Origin: Erysipelotrichaceae bacterium
Lineage (GTDB): Bacteria > Bacillota_I > Bacilli_A > Erysipelotrichales > Erysipelotrichaceae
Length of the DNA stretch: 64,000 nucleotides
Reading direction: 5' to 3'
Assembly (NCBI GenBank): GCA_017428765.1
Contig: JAFRQF010000005.1
Location: 1 to 64,000, forward strand
Below the pieces are notes generated by a model, which made no database searches, was not told the origin of the DNA, and saw only the letters and a list, made by a program, of their open reading frames with translations. Positions 119 through 36,488 of the stretch are shown one piece after another. Made by a program: the position numbers and the translations under genes. Within the stretch, counting starts at the first letter, position 1. The number at the start of each line of letters is the position of its first letter.

Positions 119-177
119 AATAGGACTAAGCTTCAAAAACCCTTTATTTGCCGAGCCTTTTGAATTTAGTCCTATTA
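119..177. repeat. 11-bp inverted repeat bounding a 37-bp AT-rich segment at the comFA break
   Basis: AATAGGACTAA (119-129) and TTAGTCCTATT (167-177) are perfect inverted copies. They enclose a segment read on the minus strand as GGCTCGGCAAATAAAGGG followed by TTTTTGAAG. The segment sits exactly where comFA homology stops. There is no T-run at the right place for an ordinary terminator and the loop is long. The interior vaguely resembles ends of ISL3-type insertion sequences, so a remnant or miniature element is possible, but this is not established. Confidence 0.5.
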
Positions 178-182
178 TTCCA

Positions 183-691
183 TACGCATCAAGCACCAGC
201 AGATCGAAGCTCTTGTGATATCGATACAGCTGATGACAGGTGCAGACGATCAGATCCCCTTTCAGGCACTCGTGATGGCCGCCATAGACGGCCTGTATCC
301 GCGCTTTCGGGAAGATGGTCTGAAAGCGGTCGGAAAGTTCGATGACCACTTCCTTGCGCGGGATCGCATACGCCACCTTGCATCCTTTGGAAAGATAATG
401 AGCGATGCTTTGGATCGCGATCTCCGTCTTGCCGGCACCGCACACGCAATGAAGAAGCACATCGCCGTTTTCCAAAGCCCTGAGGCATCTGTCCGAGGCT
501 TCTTTCTGATCTTTGGACAGTTCATAGGAAAACGCATACTCGCTCGCCTCAGGATCCACCTCGTAGTCAAAGCCTTCCAGCTCTTCTTTCAACAGCACAC
601 GGGAAAAGCGTATGCATTTCCGGCAGTAGTAGCCTTTCGATCCCTTATAGAAATATGTGGGATCGGTATTGCTGCATCTTGGACATTTCAT
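183..691 (-). pseudogene. comFA: comFA, truncated after Walker B (DNA-uptake helicase)
   Basis: ComFA is the cytosolic DEAD-box ATPase that drives DNA uptake during natural transformation. The ATG at 691 has an AGGAGG site. Two CxxC pairs near residues 3-6 and 23-26 make the N-terminal zinc finger. Walker A is the stretch CGAGKTE at about residue 92, followed by motifs Ia and Ib and a Walker B-like LLVLD at about residues 163-167. Family members continue with an acidic DExD-type motif and a second helicase domain, more than 400 residues in all. Here the sequence turns into AYGIIGL and unrelated residues, and the frame stays open to the left edge. All motifs after Walker B are lost. It carries the competence-type promoter described separately. 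Confidence 0.7.
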
Positions 692-705
692 CTGGTCCTC
701 CTACT

Positions 706-737
706 CATTATTCGTAAAAAAGAAGACCGATTCCTAA
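706..737 (-). promoter_or_regulatory. ComX/SigH-type competence promoter of comFA
   Basis: Read on the minus strand the site is TTAGGAATC, 11 bases, TTACGAATAATG, ending about 15 bases before the comFA ATG. The TACGAATA core equals the com-box consensus bound by ComX (sigma-X) holoenzyme in streptococci, and the AGGAAT/GAAT pair fits the Bacillus SigH consensus. The same bipartite sequence with the same spacing occurs at 36095-36126. That a ComX/SigH-like sigma factor reads it here is inference. Confidence 0.7.
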
Positions 738-776
738 AATTATTTTAAAAATTTACAATTTTGTTACACTTATGAT

Positions 777-32314: not shown

Positions 32315-33283
32315 TCAAATATATGATATTATCTCATAACTTATCGCGTCAAACAGCAGTTTTCGCTCCGCATTGAGCATGGCTTTGTCTGATGCCCTGA
32401 CGAAAATATCGAGCAGTTTTCCCGGCTGATGCTGCCTGATGATGCTCAGATGCCGGTTGTAAAGATCATCGTCGCTTTCCTTATTTTTCAAAGCGTCATC
32501 GATCATGACGATCATGACAGACAGATACATGTCGACGCATCTGCGGAATTCCTCACGGTCCTTGAATTCCGTATAGAATTCCTGGGAAAACATCACCGGC
32601 AGAAATTCCTTCTTATCGAAAAGCTCGATGGTCTTGTATACATAGTCCCTGGCGGCCAGATAGATCGGATCGTTGAGATCCAGATCGGGATCGTAGCGGT
32701 GCAGGATGTTGGAAAGCAGGTAGGCATCGATCCTGTCAAAGCCCTTTTCCTCATATCTATCGATCAGGAAAGAAAAATCCCTGGTCAGAAAAGGAACTTC
32801 CTGACAGCGTGAGACGATGGTCGGAAGCAGATCCTCCTTGTGATCGGAGATGAAGATACCGTAGGTATTGGAACTGCTTGGTTCCTCCATGAACTTGAGG
32901 ATCATGTTGAGGACCTTGGTCGAAGCGTTGTTGATGTTGGCGAGGATGTAGACCTTCTTGCCCGAAGACTCCAGGGAAGTCCTGGAGAATTCATCAAGGA
33001 TCATCTCGATATCATCCTTTTTGATGCTGGAGGCATAGCCGTCGACATAGATCACATCGAAATAGCTGTTGTTCCTGATACGCTTGCATACATCGCAGGT
33101 CTCGCAGGCGAAATCATCTTTGCCTTCCACGATCGACTGCGCCAGAAGATAAGCCGCTTCGATCTTCAAAGGGTTGTATTCACCTGAAAAAAGGTAGCTG
33201 TGCGCTACTTTTCTGTTTTTCAGAGAGTTTTCAAGGCTCTGATACGCGATCGGTTCAGAATCCCTAAGCTGCGTTTTGATCAT
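32315..33283 (-). CDS. holB: DNA polymerase III delta' subunit
   Basis: Clamp-loader subunit. The 322 residues have the delta' pattern: degenerate P-loop region (SYLFSGEYNPLKIEAAYLLA), zinc cysteines in CETCDVCKRI near 60, and the sensor region FMEEPSSSNTYGIF. Starts inside the last codons of tmk (20-base overlap). Confidence 0.9.
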   Translation of the reverse strand: MIKTQLRDSEPIAYQSLENSLKNRKVAHSYLFSGEYNPLKIEAAYLLAQSIVEGKDDFACETCDVCKRIRNNSYFDVIYVDGYASSIKKDDIEMILDEFSRTSLESSGKKVYILANINNASTKVLNMILKFMEEPSSSNTYGIFISDHKEDLLPTIVSRCQEVPFLTRDFSFLIDRYEEKGFDRIDAYLLSNILHRYDPDLDLNDPIYLAARDYVYKTIELFDKKEFLPVMFSQEFYTEFKDREEFRRCVDMYLSVMIVMIDDALKNKESDDDLYNRHLSIIRQHQPGKLLDIFVRASDKAMLNAERKLLFDAISYEIISYI

Positions 33284-33899
33284 TGATCAGTTTTAAGATC
33301 TCCTTCATGGAAGCTTCAATGACCTCTTGTTTCGTCTTTGAAGCATCGATGATCGTGATGCGGTCTTTGAAACGCCTCAGCACTTCCCGATAGCCTTGCG
33401 AGACCCGATGATGGAATTCCAGCGATTCCTGATCGAGACGGTCCTTGAAGCTGCGGTCCTGCAGACGGTCGAGCCCGACCTGTTCATCGACATCAAGATA
33501 GATCGTCATATCCGGATAGGTATTGTCGATCGCAAACAGATTGATCGATAATACTTCATCAAAGCCAAGATTCCTGCCATAGCCCTGGTAAGCCAGCGAG
33601 GAATCCAGAAAGCGCTCGCAGATGACGATCTTGCCTTCTTTCACCGCCGGGAAGACCTTCTCAACAAGGTGCTGACGGCGGGAGGCGGCATAAAGAAGCG
33701 CCTCTGTCTTGGCGTCCATCATCGTATTTTTCGGATCAAGGATGATATTGCGGATGTCTTCGGAAATGCCGATACCGCCCGGTTCTCTGGTATGGATGAC
33801 ATCGTATCCGAGTTCAGTGAGCCGTTTGCAGACTTCCGTGGCAACGGTCGTCTTGCCGGAACCGTCCGGTCCTTCGAATGTAATAAAATAACCCTTCAT
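33264..33899 (-). CDS. tmk: Thymidylate kinase
   Basis: Phosphorylates dTMP to dTDP. P-loop FEGPDGSGKTT near residue 8, the TREPGG motif near 37 (DR-type ER(F) region CERFLDSSLAYQG near 92), 211 residues. The ATG overlaps the preceding Phd-like stop (TGATG). Standard neighbour of holB. Confidence 0.95.
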   Translation of the reverse strand: MKGYFITFEGPDGSGKTTVATEVCKRLTELGYDVIHTREPGGIGISEDIRNIILDPKNTMMDAKTEALLYAASRRQHLVEKVFPAVKEGKIVICERFLDSSLAYQGYGRNLGFDEVLSINLFAIDNTYPDMTIYLDVDEQVGLDRLQDRSFKDRLDQESLEFHHRVSQGYREVLRRFKDRITIIDASKTKQEVIEASMKEILKLINDQNAA

Positions 33900-34222: not shown

Positions 34223-34999
34223 CTACAAGGCTTCTTCCTGGACCTGACCGATAAAAGAGAAGAAATCCGGAACGGCACAGATCGTATCATAAAGCTCGTC
34301 GATCGCCGAAAGGAATTCTTTCTGTTTCGCATCGTTTTCATCGATGTCCCACATATGATCGAGATACCCGGCGTATTCGATGTTTTTAAACATATCCAGT
34401 GTCACTTCCCTGGCTCTGAGCCTGTCTTCGTGCTTGAGCAGCGTCACGATCAGAAGGATATAGTCATAGATATCGAACTTCGCATCCAGATACAGACGGT
34501 AGAAATCATCCGCCTCTTCGATCACGCTGTACATGAAAGACAGCCTGCTGACGTTTTCCTTGGAAAGTTCACCGGAAAGACGTATGACCTGCCTTTGGAC
34601 CTTGATGGCCTTGGTGAAGTTCCGGATATCCATCAGAAAATCAGAGTAGAAGCGAAGTATGGTGAGAAAACAATGTTTCTGATAGGAAGAAAGATCGCCA
34701 TATTCGCTCAGATGTTCGTAGTAGGCGGCAAAACGCTGGTCCACATAAACGTCTTCCGACAGCATGAACCAGACGAAAAAGGCTTCCACGCATAAGGGAT
34801 CATAGGAAAACGCCTGTTCGCAGCGTTCGATCAGTTCTCTGGAAGAGAAAAACATCTCCTTGATCGCTTTCCGGGCGATCCTGTCCGCTTCCGCGGGGAT
34901 CTGATACGTCTTGAATGCGGAACGCGTGAAAAAGGAAGTGAAATACTCTTTGGGATCCTTGTCTTTTAAGTCAGCGACCAGTGCAGCAAAATCAGCCAT
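34223..34999 (-). CDS. Unknown helical protein
   Basis: A 258-residue soluble protein, almost entirely helix-forming and rich in Tyr, Phe, Asp and Glu. The irregular hydrophobic repeats could be TPR-like. No catalytic motif or membrane segment is seen and I do not recognise a family. Its start overlaps the end of nudF by eight bases, so it is translated with it. Confidence 0.7.
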   Translation of the reverse strand: MADFAALVADLKDKDPKEYFTSFFTRSAFKTYQIPAEADRIARKAIKEMFFSSRELIERCEQAFSYDPLCVEAFFVWFMLSEDVYVDQRFAAYYEHLSEYGDLSSYQKHCFLTILRFYSDFLMDIRNFTKAIKVQRQVIRLSGELSKENVSRLSFMYSVIEEADDFYRLYLDAKFDIYDYILLIVTLLKHEDRLRAREVTLDMFKNIEYAGYLDHMWDIDENDAKQKEFLSAIDELYDTICAVPDFFSFIGQVQEEAL

Positions 35000-35519
35000 C
35001 GATACTTTCCATCTTTATGTAATACATCAGTGCGATCGTCTTGGCATCATCGATCTGACCGTTCAAGATCATCTCATTGATCTGTGAGAACGAATAGAGC
35101 TTGAGGTCGATCCTTTCATCCGGATCGAAGTGCTGGCCAAGCTTTTCATCCGCTTCGCCATAGTATAAGTGGATCCTTTCCGAACAATAGCCGCAGGTCG
35201 GGATGATGCTTCCCATCTTGCGGATGTTCTTTACGGAATAGCCGGTCTCCTCGACTGCTTCCCGCAGTATCGTCTCATCGGGATCTTCCCCTTTTTCGAT
35301 CTTGCCGGCCGGAAATTCCAGCATCTCCTTGCCCAGGGAATAGCGGTACTGAGAGACCATAAAATACAGTCCGTCTTTCTTTAAGGCGATGCAGGCACCG
35401 CCATTATGTAAGACGACCTCACGATAGGCTCTTGAACCGTCGTCCAGTGCGACTTCATCCTTCACCACATGGATGACTTTCCCGTTATAGATCTCTTCTC
35501 TGTTCACTTGTTTTTCCAT
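34992..35519 (-). CDS. nudF: NUDIX hydrolase, ADP-ribose pyrophosphatase type
   Basis: The Nudix box spans about residues 72-94 (GKIEKGEDPD, then REAVEETGY). The 175-residue length, the start (EEIYNGKVIHVVKDEVALDDG) and the proline after the box region fit ADP-ribose pyrophosphatases. GAAGGA lies eight bases before the ATG, inside the 3' end of the PIN-like gene (35-base overlap). Confidence 0.88.
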   Translation of the reverse strand: MEKQVNREEIYNGKVIHVVKDEVALDDGSRAYREVVLHNGGACIALKKDGLYFMVSQYRYSLGKEMLEFPAGKIEKGEDPDETILREAVEETGYSVKNIRKMGSIIPTCGYCSERIHLYYGEADEKLGQHFDPDERIDLKLYSFSQINEMILNGQIDDAKTIALMYYIKMESIDG

Positions 35520-35907
35520 TTTCGATCTTCCTTCTCAATTCTTTCGGAACGTACAGTTCTATTGTACTATCCTCTTTCCCGTTTTTCTCCATCACCAGCG
35601 CACAATCGAGCCGATGCCGCTTCACCAGGATCGCATACAGACCGCTTTCCGGATCCTCATAATTGAGTGCCTCCCTCAAGTCACGCATATTGACATGGAT
35701 CGGTTTCAAAAGCTTCCCCAATATCGAAAGGGTCTTTCGCATCTCGTTCGCCGTCATCTTTTGCGCCAGAAGGCAGTAATAGAAACTGCAGCAGTAGCCT
35801 TCGATCGTTTTGTCCTGACAATCGTTGAGGAAGCGTCTGATCTCCATGGAACGGTTTCCGTTTTCCAGGACCTCATCAAGCACGGTATTGGCAAACAATA
35901 CTTTCAT
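35485..35907 (-). CDS. PIN-domain (VapC-like) protein with a missing first aspartate
   Basis: A 140-residue protein whose start (MKVLFANTVLDEVLENG) mirrors the PIN pattern DTNVLLD, but the invariant first aspartate is replaced (FANTVLD). The middle is helical and the end (NYEDPESGLYAI, RHRLDCALVMEKN) follows the later PIN acidic motifs. VapC-type PIN proteins are RNases inhibited by an antitoxin. Loss of the first acidic residue may reduce catalysis. The gene overlaps the Phd-like antitoxin gene upstream and nudF downstream. Confidence 0.6.
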   Translation of the reverse strand: MKVLFANTVLDEVLENGNRSMEIRRFLNDCQDKTIEGYCCSFYYCLLAQKMTANEMRKTLSILGKLLKPIHVNMRDLREALNYEDPESGLYAILVKRHRLDCALVMEKNGKEDSTIELYVPKELRRKIENGKTSEQRRDL

Positions 35908-36079
35908 CCCTGTGATATCCTTTCAGTTCATCCGAGATATAGGACGGCGATCTTTCGATCGCGATCAGCTTGGCGATGATGATCCCGTGTCTTTCGATAT
36001 AGACTTCGCCGTTCTTCAGCGCCTGGTCAAGATACTTTCCGAAACTGTTTTTCATTTGTGTTGCCGTAGCTATCAGCAT
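35876..36079 (-). CDS. Phd/YefM-family antitoxin-like protein
   Basis: A 67-residue protein with the Phd fold signature: ATATQMKNSFGKYLDQAL, then GEVYIERHGIIIAKLIAIE. GGAGG precedes the ATG. It overlaps the PIN-like gene by 32 bases, the usual order antitoxin-toxin. It is the first gene after the competence-type promoter at 36095-36126. Confidence 0.75.
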   Translation of the reverse strand: MLIATATQMKNSFGKYLDQALKNGEVYIERHGIIIAKLIAIERSPSYISDELKGYHRDESIVCQYRA

Positions 36080-36094
36080 AATATACCTCCACTA

Positions 36095-36126
36095 CATTAT
36101 TCGTAAGAAAAACAGCGGATTCCTAA
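36095..36126 (-). promoter_or_regulatory. ComX/SigH-type competence promoter of the Phd/PIN-nudF unit
   Basis: TTAGGAATC (36118-36126), 11 bases, TTACGAATAATG (36095-36106) on the minus strand, identical in both conserved blocks and spacing to the comFA promoter at 706-737. It lies between the terminator of the mfd operon and the GGAGG of the Phd-like gene. Confidence 0.7.
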
Positions 36127-36133
36127 CCCGAAA

Positions 36134-36162
36134 TGAAAAAAATGCGGATTCTTCCGCATTTT
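36134..36162 (-). terminator. Terminator of the mfd-rqcP-divIC-like operon
   Basis: AATGCGGA and TCCGCATT pair around AGAA-type loop and are followed by a long T-run on the minus strand. Confidence 0.88.
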
Positions 36163-36188: not shown

Positions 36189-36488
36189 CTAATCGCCCGG
36201 CAGATAGAAGACTTTTTCATCGCCCTTGGAGAACATATATTCGCCTCTGGCGTAAGTTTGCACATAGTCGGGATCCTCCAGCTTTTCCTTGGTCGAAGTC
36301 AGAGAAGCATTCTCATCGCGCAGTGCTTCGAGCTCCGCTTCCACTACCTTGGCCTGCTGCTGCAGGGTGAACATATTGTAGATCTTTTCCAAGACACCCG
36401 AAAGGATGGCGATCGCAGCAACGATCAGAACGATCGAGATCAGTTTGGAAACGATCGGATTCTTTTTCTTCTTTCCCTTTTTAGCCAT
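36189..36488 (-). CDS. DivIC/FtsB-family septum formation initiator
   Basis: A 99-residue bitopic protein: lysine-rich N-terminus, one transmembrane helix near 14-32, then a coiled coil (QQQAKVVEAELEALRDENASL) and the DPDYVQTYARGEYMFSKGDEKVF end typical of DivIC. It acts in the divisome. The mfd-rqcP-divIC order is common in Bacillota. Confidence 0.85.
   Translation of the reverse strand: MAKKGKKKKNPIVSKLISIVLIVAAIAILSGVLEKIYNMFTLQQQAKVVEAELEALRDENASLTSTKEKLEDPDYVQTYARGEYMFSKGDEKVFYLPGD

Follow-up and report, generated by a model that had tools for sequence, protein, structure and literature searches.

The streptococcal SigX (ComX) regulon is characterized by the −10 octamer TACGAATA, which is tabulated as the SigX-box (cin-box or com-box) and directly preceded by a T-tract, and its targets include comGA, comFA, comEA, dprA and the late competence gene radC (PMC6001120). 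In Streptococcus pneumoniae, the gene of this sigma factor lies next to rRNA operons (PMC3364868). Activation of com genes by SigH-type factors encoded at the classical sigH locus is described for Lactobacillus sakei (PMC3364868) and Staphylococcus aureus (PMC3486894), and activation by SigH for Listeria monocytogenes (PMC4754846); the SigH consensus is given as (A/G)(A/C)AGG(A/G)(A/T)(A/T)(A/T)-N11-12-(A/G)(A/G)(A/C)GAA(A/T) (PMC4754846). The sigma-H promoters of Bacillus subtilis carry the corresponding −35 RMAGGRWWW and −10 RRMGAAW separated by N11-12 (PMC4754846), and in that organism the uptake genes are not under the direct control of sigma-H (PMC3364868). For SigH, strong sequence divergence inside a conserved gene cassette has been described as a 'similarity gulf' (PMC3486894), and its reason has been called unknown (PMC3364868).

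The window, that is, the whole stretch of 64,000 nucleotides analysed here, contains two sites on the minus strand that resemble both types of promoter. Upstream of comFA, positions 737-706 read TTAGGAATC GGTCTTCTTTT TTACGAATAATG, and 35 kb from this copy, positions 36126-36095 read TTAGGAATC CGCTGTTTTTC TTACGAATAATG. As the original prediction had stated for these two places, the conserved blocks and the length of the spacer are identical, and the spacer letters differ. Judged by its letters, the element joins a SigH-like −35 region (AGGAAT) to the −10 region of the streptococcal SigX-box (T-tract and TACGAATA), which bears out two further parts of the prediction: the core equals the streptococcal com-box, the octamer being identical in this species and directly preceded by a T-tract (PMC6001120), and AGGAAT agrees with the −35 consensus of SigH (PMC4754846). 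The SigH promoters of non-sporulating Firmicutes are likewise similar, with AGG(A/G)(A/T)(A/T) at −35 and GAA(A/T) at −10. The element differs from that of streptococcal SigX in the presence of the strict AGGAAT at −35. The scan pattern proposed earlier, AGGAAT-N14-TACGAATA, has no match in the window; its bipartite core was correct and its spacing one base too long, as AGGAAT-N13-TACGAATA gives exactly two perfect matches. The features of the two loci are collected in Table 1.

Table 1. Positions of the putative promoters and the associated genes in the window.
Feature	Position	Strand	Basis
Putative competence promoter of comFA	706..738	(-)	Sequence; matrix score 29.6; congeners carry the bipartite element at the corresponding place before comFA
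comFA promoter, −35 block TTTAGGAATC	738-729
comFA promoter, 11-nt spacer	728-718
comFA promoter, −10 block TTACGAATAATG	717-706
comFA, 5' part only (172 codons)	176..691	(-)	62-76% identity to ComFA of congeners
Second putative competence promoter	36095..36127	(-)	Sequence; matrix score 29.0
Second promoter, −35 block GTTAGGAATC	36127-36118
Second promoter, 11-nt spacer
Second promoter, −10 block TTACGAATAATG	36106-36095
Terminator-like hairpin and T-run, between divIC-like gene (36189-36488) and second promoter	36134..36159	(-)	Read from the sequence; gene order
Phd/YefM-type antitoxin, 67 aa, first gene after second promoter	35876..36079	(-)	PF02604, E 2.3e-7, over cut-off
Degenerate PIN-domain protein (toxin-like partner), 140 aa	35485..35907	(-)	3' end overlaps NUDIX gene
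NUDIX hydrolase, 175 aa, third operon gene	34992..35519	(-)	PF00293, E 4.6e-14; same order in congeners
Protein of unknown family, 258 aa, same operon	34223..34999	(-)	Open reading frame; no Pfam match; order conserved
Thymidylate kinase (tmk), further along the same minus-strand gene run	33264..33899	(-)	PF02223, E 5.7e-53

The matrix scores in Table 1 come from a position matrix that was derived from 15 species and had both window sites in its training set; the next best place in the window scored 11.4. The octamer TACGAATA alone occurs in the window at a frequency near chance (3 seen against 1.1 expected), so the evidence lies in the bipartite form. On the strength of the octamer, the two copies could be put down to chance, or to a dispersed repeat that has no regulatory role. 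This reading is extremely improbable, as the bipartite core has four exact matches in the 2.4-Mb genome and its reversed control has none, the matrix leaves a gap of 29 to 11 within the window, and in many species com genes have the element ahead of their ribosome-binding site; the conserved position across congeners rules it out in practice.

At comFA, an AGGAGG ribosome-binding site begins 3 nt past the −10 block. The similarity to ComFA stops at about codon 168 (position ~188), close to the contig end, and the break represents an insertion or an assembly break; the remainder of the gene was sought within 700 bp of other contig ends and was not found there. Beyond the ComFA-like part, positions 1-188 of the window contain an inverted TAGGACTAA/TTAGTCCTA pair and the apparent start of another gene.

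At the second promoter, the hairpin listed in Table 1 is inferred from its sequence to insulate the promoter from the divIC-like gene. The 140-aa protein encoded behind the antitoxin gene has no Pfam match by itself; among its orthologues, PIN_3 is matched by three of six members, and the usual acidic residues of PIN domains are not invariant. A single-sequence structure prediction was too poor for use (pLDDT 53). The protein looks, from these residues, catalytically degenerate, and an active toxin is not claimed, because the PIN assignment rests on the orthologues and the acidic residues are not invariant. Between the genes of the 258-aa protein and thymidylate kinase lies one for a small protein. 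Congeners keep the order divIC, promoter, antitoxin, PIN-like protein and NUDIX hydrolase; in one of them (G251), the PIN part has apparently been lost, and the antitoxin and the promoter have been kept. The inclusion of this operon distinguishes the regulon from those of SigH in non-sporulating Firmicutes. A toxin-antitoxin pair under a competence regulator is known from Haemophilus influenzae (PMC6957337), where both the organism and the regulator (CRP/Sxy) differ, in addition to the apparent degeneration of the PIN-like partner here.

In the whole genome, all four exact matches of the core have the N13 spacing, although N11-N15 was allowed. A longer 18-base form gave 26 matches with up to three mismatches against 10 in the control; 11 of the matches have 0-2 mismatches and include those of comFA, comGA, comE1 and the radC operon, and the weakest matches, with three mismatches, are mostly indistinguishable from the background of this genome. 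The other exact and near matches lie largely ahead of competence genes. Relaxed forms of the element were found upstream of comGA, dprA (with a spacer one base shorter), the comEA-comEC operon, where two sites lie within the gene run leading to comEA and comEC, and an operon encoding a CpaB-like protein, VanZ and RadC. Among the genes with such sites, comGA, comFA, comEA, dprA and radC are targets shared with the streptococcal SigX regulon (PMC6001120). The sites of comFA, cpaB-like/radC and comE1 read TTTTTTACGAATA, and the copies of the element are located on different contigs. One exact match (L062) is followed only by a short open frame without a known family. Near matches also occur before genes whose regulation is not known, encoding a Transposase_31 family protein, a BrnT/BrnA pair, a WXG100 protein and a TnpB-like protein. 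The site at L152:1501-1894 is a near-identical competence-type site about 80 bp before the BrnT/BrnA toxin-antitoxin pair (PF04365, PF14384), and that at L153:1501-2654, which is weaker with two mismatches, lies just before the TnpB-like protein (OrfB_IS605, Cas12f1-like TNB domain).

The exact motif was absent from the 293 other genomes of the order, which fall in two families, and matched only in the genome of the window. This result was read at first as a species-specific motif, a reading that was replaced by a drift of letters: the exact motif is missing elsewhere because the letters drift per species, and relatives keep the architecture with other letters. Across 14 species of the genus, most of the regulon genes, and likewise the operon at 36 kb, are immediately preceded by the same bipartite element. 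For comFA and dprA as well as for the antitoxin and cpaB-like operons, it was found upstream in up to 14 congeners, and the same architecture precedes comGA within the genus; before the gene orthologous to that behind the second promoter, it is present in 7 of the 8 congeners where that gene was found. The element is positioned just before the ribosome-binding site or the start codon and consists of AGG(A/T)(A/T)T and, separated from the 10-letter −35 block by 10-11 bases, a T-rich stretch followed by RAATAATG. Examples of the letters are CCGGGAATAATG (G253) and CGGCGAATAATG (G243), and three genes of G184 have AGGTGA with GCAGATAA, so that the −10 letters, unlike those of the streptococcal SigX-box, vary between congeners. 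No site was found for phd of G242 or comGA of G269, none exceeded the threshold in the partial stretch examined around comEA of G144, and the comFA sites of G248 and G184 score low. In other genera of the order, the upstream regions of comGA mostly lack this exact element. Those of the other family (L316-L326) often share a −10-like word, GCGTATATA, before AGGAGG, which is possibly the same promoter in another dialect. A scan of a wider contig set gave four matches in unrelated bacteria, which were judged to be chance.

The pattern of conservation can also be described in terms of a housekeeping promoter. AATAATG is the most constant part of the element across species, and the arrangement AGGAAT-N17-AATAAT has a SigA-like spacing, so that SigA might recognize AATAAT as its −10 region, with a ComK-like or other activator acting on AGGAAT and the T-tract, in which case the fast change of SigH would be unrelated. 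We consider this unlikely: AGG is invariant at −35 in nearly all sites, unlike TTGACA; both the −35 and the −10 regions match the SigH consensus (PMC4754846) and the SigX-box (PMC6001120); and AATTAT, AATCAT or GATAA(T/A) stand in for AATAAT in some species.

A candidate sigma factor of the SigH/ComX type for these promoters is present. The genome holds four proteins with sigma-70 region 2, one of which (191 aa) is encoded after cysS, mrnC and rlmB and ahead of rpmG-secE-nusG, which is the classical position of sigH. This cassette, cysS-mrnC-rlmB-sigH-rpmG-secE-nusG, is the same as that of non-sporulating Firmicutes, with which the link between the sigma factor and late com genes, inferred here, is also shared, and it differs from the location in S. 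pneumoniae. The SigH-like gene lies beside the same neighbours (rlmB/nusG) in 30 genomes. The protein scores 91.8 against the superfamily model TIGR02937 (cut-off 42.9) and only 40.8 bits against TIGR02859 (cut-off 294.8); since the curated SigH models are matched far below their cut-offs, the orthology rests on synteny. Sigma-H chains are among its neighbours in a phmmer search of the PDB. Relative to the proteins of the window's species, the identity at the same loci is 31-54% for SigH, 61-86% for rlmB, 57-80% for mrnC and 81-98% for nusG, and region 2.4 is among the least conserved functional regions of SigH. This divergence among congeners fits the 'similarity gulf' (PMC3486894). As a separate observation, the SigH frame of G296 (L105) departs from that of its sister G253 within region 4.2, as by a frameshift or an assembly error.

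Taken together, the site most probably represents a competence promoter of the SigH/ComX type that is common to comFA and the antitoxin/PIN-like/NUDIX operon, within a regulon conserved in the genus. We hold it to be highly probable that both sites belong, as promoters, to a single competence regulon and that the SigH/ComX-like sigma factor from the rlmB-rpmG gap reads them, in the absence of transcript, binding or knockout data: the sites, their genes, the conserved position and architecture in congeners and the sigma gene are read directly from the DNA, and the recognition of the sites by this sigma factor and the joint induction of the genes are inferred. The original prediction of a real competence promoter is thus supported by the sites before com genes and the conserved placement in congeners, and its assignment of the second site to the same regulon by the element before the 36-kb operon in congeners. 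The sites it anticipated before comGA, comEA, comEC and dprA are present, as is one before comFA, and the sigma gene of the ComX/SigH type was found in a conserved cassette. The consensus it offered is usable in its exact form only in this species, given the absence of matches in the 293 other genomes, and the architecture is common to close relatives.

The drift of the promoter letters was quantified using 77 instances of the element from 15 species and 7 promoters, compared at 16 core letters (7 at −35 and 9 at −10). The core identity was 0.795 between different promoters of the same species, 0.686 between orthologous promoters of different species and 0.670 when both differed. When the species labels were shuffled within each gene, the observed difference was never reached (z 16.7, p ≤ 0.0002), and the coherence persisted without the window's genome (G000) and without any one gene. 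The sites were chosen with one common matrix, which cannot alone create differences between species. The letters therefore change by species, coherently across unlinked genes of the regulon. The 5' part of the spacer is likewise coherent (z 8.4), which indicates that the recognised element may extend into the spacer.

Mutational bias, or an exchange of sequence between promoter copies, could make the letters coherent without any changing trans-acting factor, as related species share their composition and the coherence includes the 5' part of the spacer. This is improbable in our estimation, because flanks of equal length (16- to 18-mers) reach only z 1.3-2.3, the spacers differ between copies within one genome, and the copies lie on different contigs. 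A drifting activator at a SigA promoter, as considered above, would equally yield species-coherent drift. The natural reading is the co-evolution of the sigma factor and its promoters, in which the letter drift reflects a sigma specificity that changes with the promoters; this is an inference, as no direct correlation with SigH distance was found. The species distances of whole SigH and of the promoters were not correlated (Mantel r −0.01, p 0.52), and the region-wise tests were weak, only the linker against the −10 letters giving r 0.33 (p 0.003, uncorrected among 12 tests). We give an even chance to the statement that each species of this genus has its own competence-promoter dialect, changed in concert throughout the regulon because SigH and the promoters co-evolve rapidly.

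If the dialect reading is true, it would explain the fast divergence of SigH within an otherwise conserved gene cassette and would offer a compact natural system for the joint change of a transcription factor and its binding sites; it predicts that the SigH of one species prefers the com promoters of that species to those of a sister species. The drift measured over 15 species and 77 sites offers a testable answer to the poor conservation of the competence sigma factor between species. The kind of system is already known; in the literature searched, with partial coverage, neither this regulon in the present lineage nor a regulon-wide, species-coherent drift of promoters was found described. 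The SigH/ComX-type control of DNA uptake is extended here to such a lineage, and the defined architecture of the promoter allows the regulon to be mapped in any congener.

In the proposed mechanism, RNA polymerase with the SigH/ComX-like sigma factor would contact AGGAAT at −35 and the T-tract with ACGAATAATG at −10, and transcription would start a few bases before the Shine-Dalgarno sequence, leaving only very short leaders. In this scheme, the promoter at 706-738 would drive comFA; that at 36095-36127 would drive the antitoxin/PIN-like/NUDIX operon, possibly running on into tmk; and the other copies would drive comGA, comEA-comEC, dprA and the cpaB-like/vanZ/radC operon.

Three minor observations concern individual sites. 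At dprA (L077:1355-1395 and congeners), the promoter block ends just 3-6 bases before the start codon, so the transcript may be almost leaderless. Directly after the first comE promoter (L061:2880-2908), there is a hairpin with a U-run (GAACAGGAGGTCCTGTTC followed by T7; dG −10.6, z −4.35), similar in congeners, which may be the greA terminator overlapping the promoter end and thus stopping only read-through. Two sites, L065:5805-5834 and L067:2215-2244, located upstream of a DUF285-containing gene cluster and WXG100 genes, end in ACGAATAACG and may constitute a class of their own within this promoter type.
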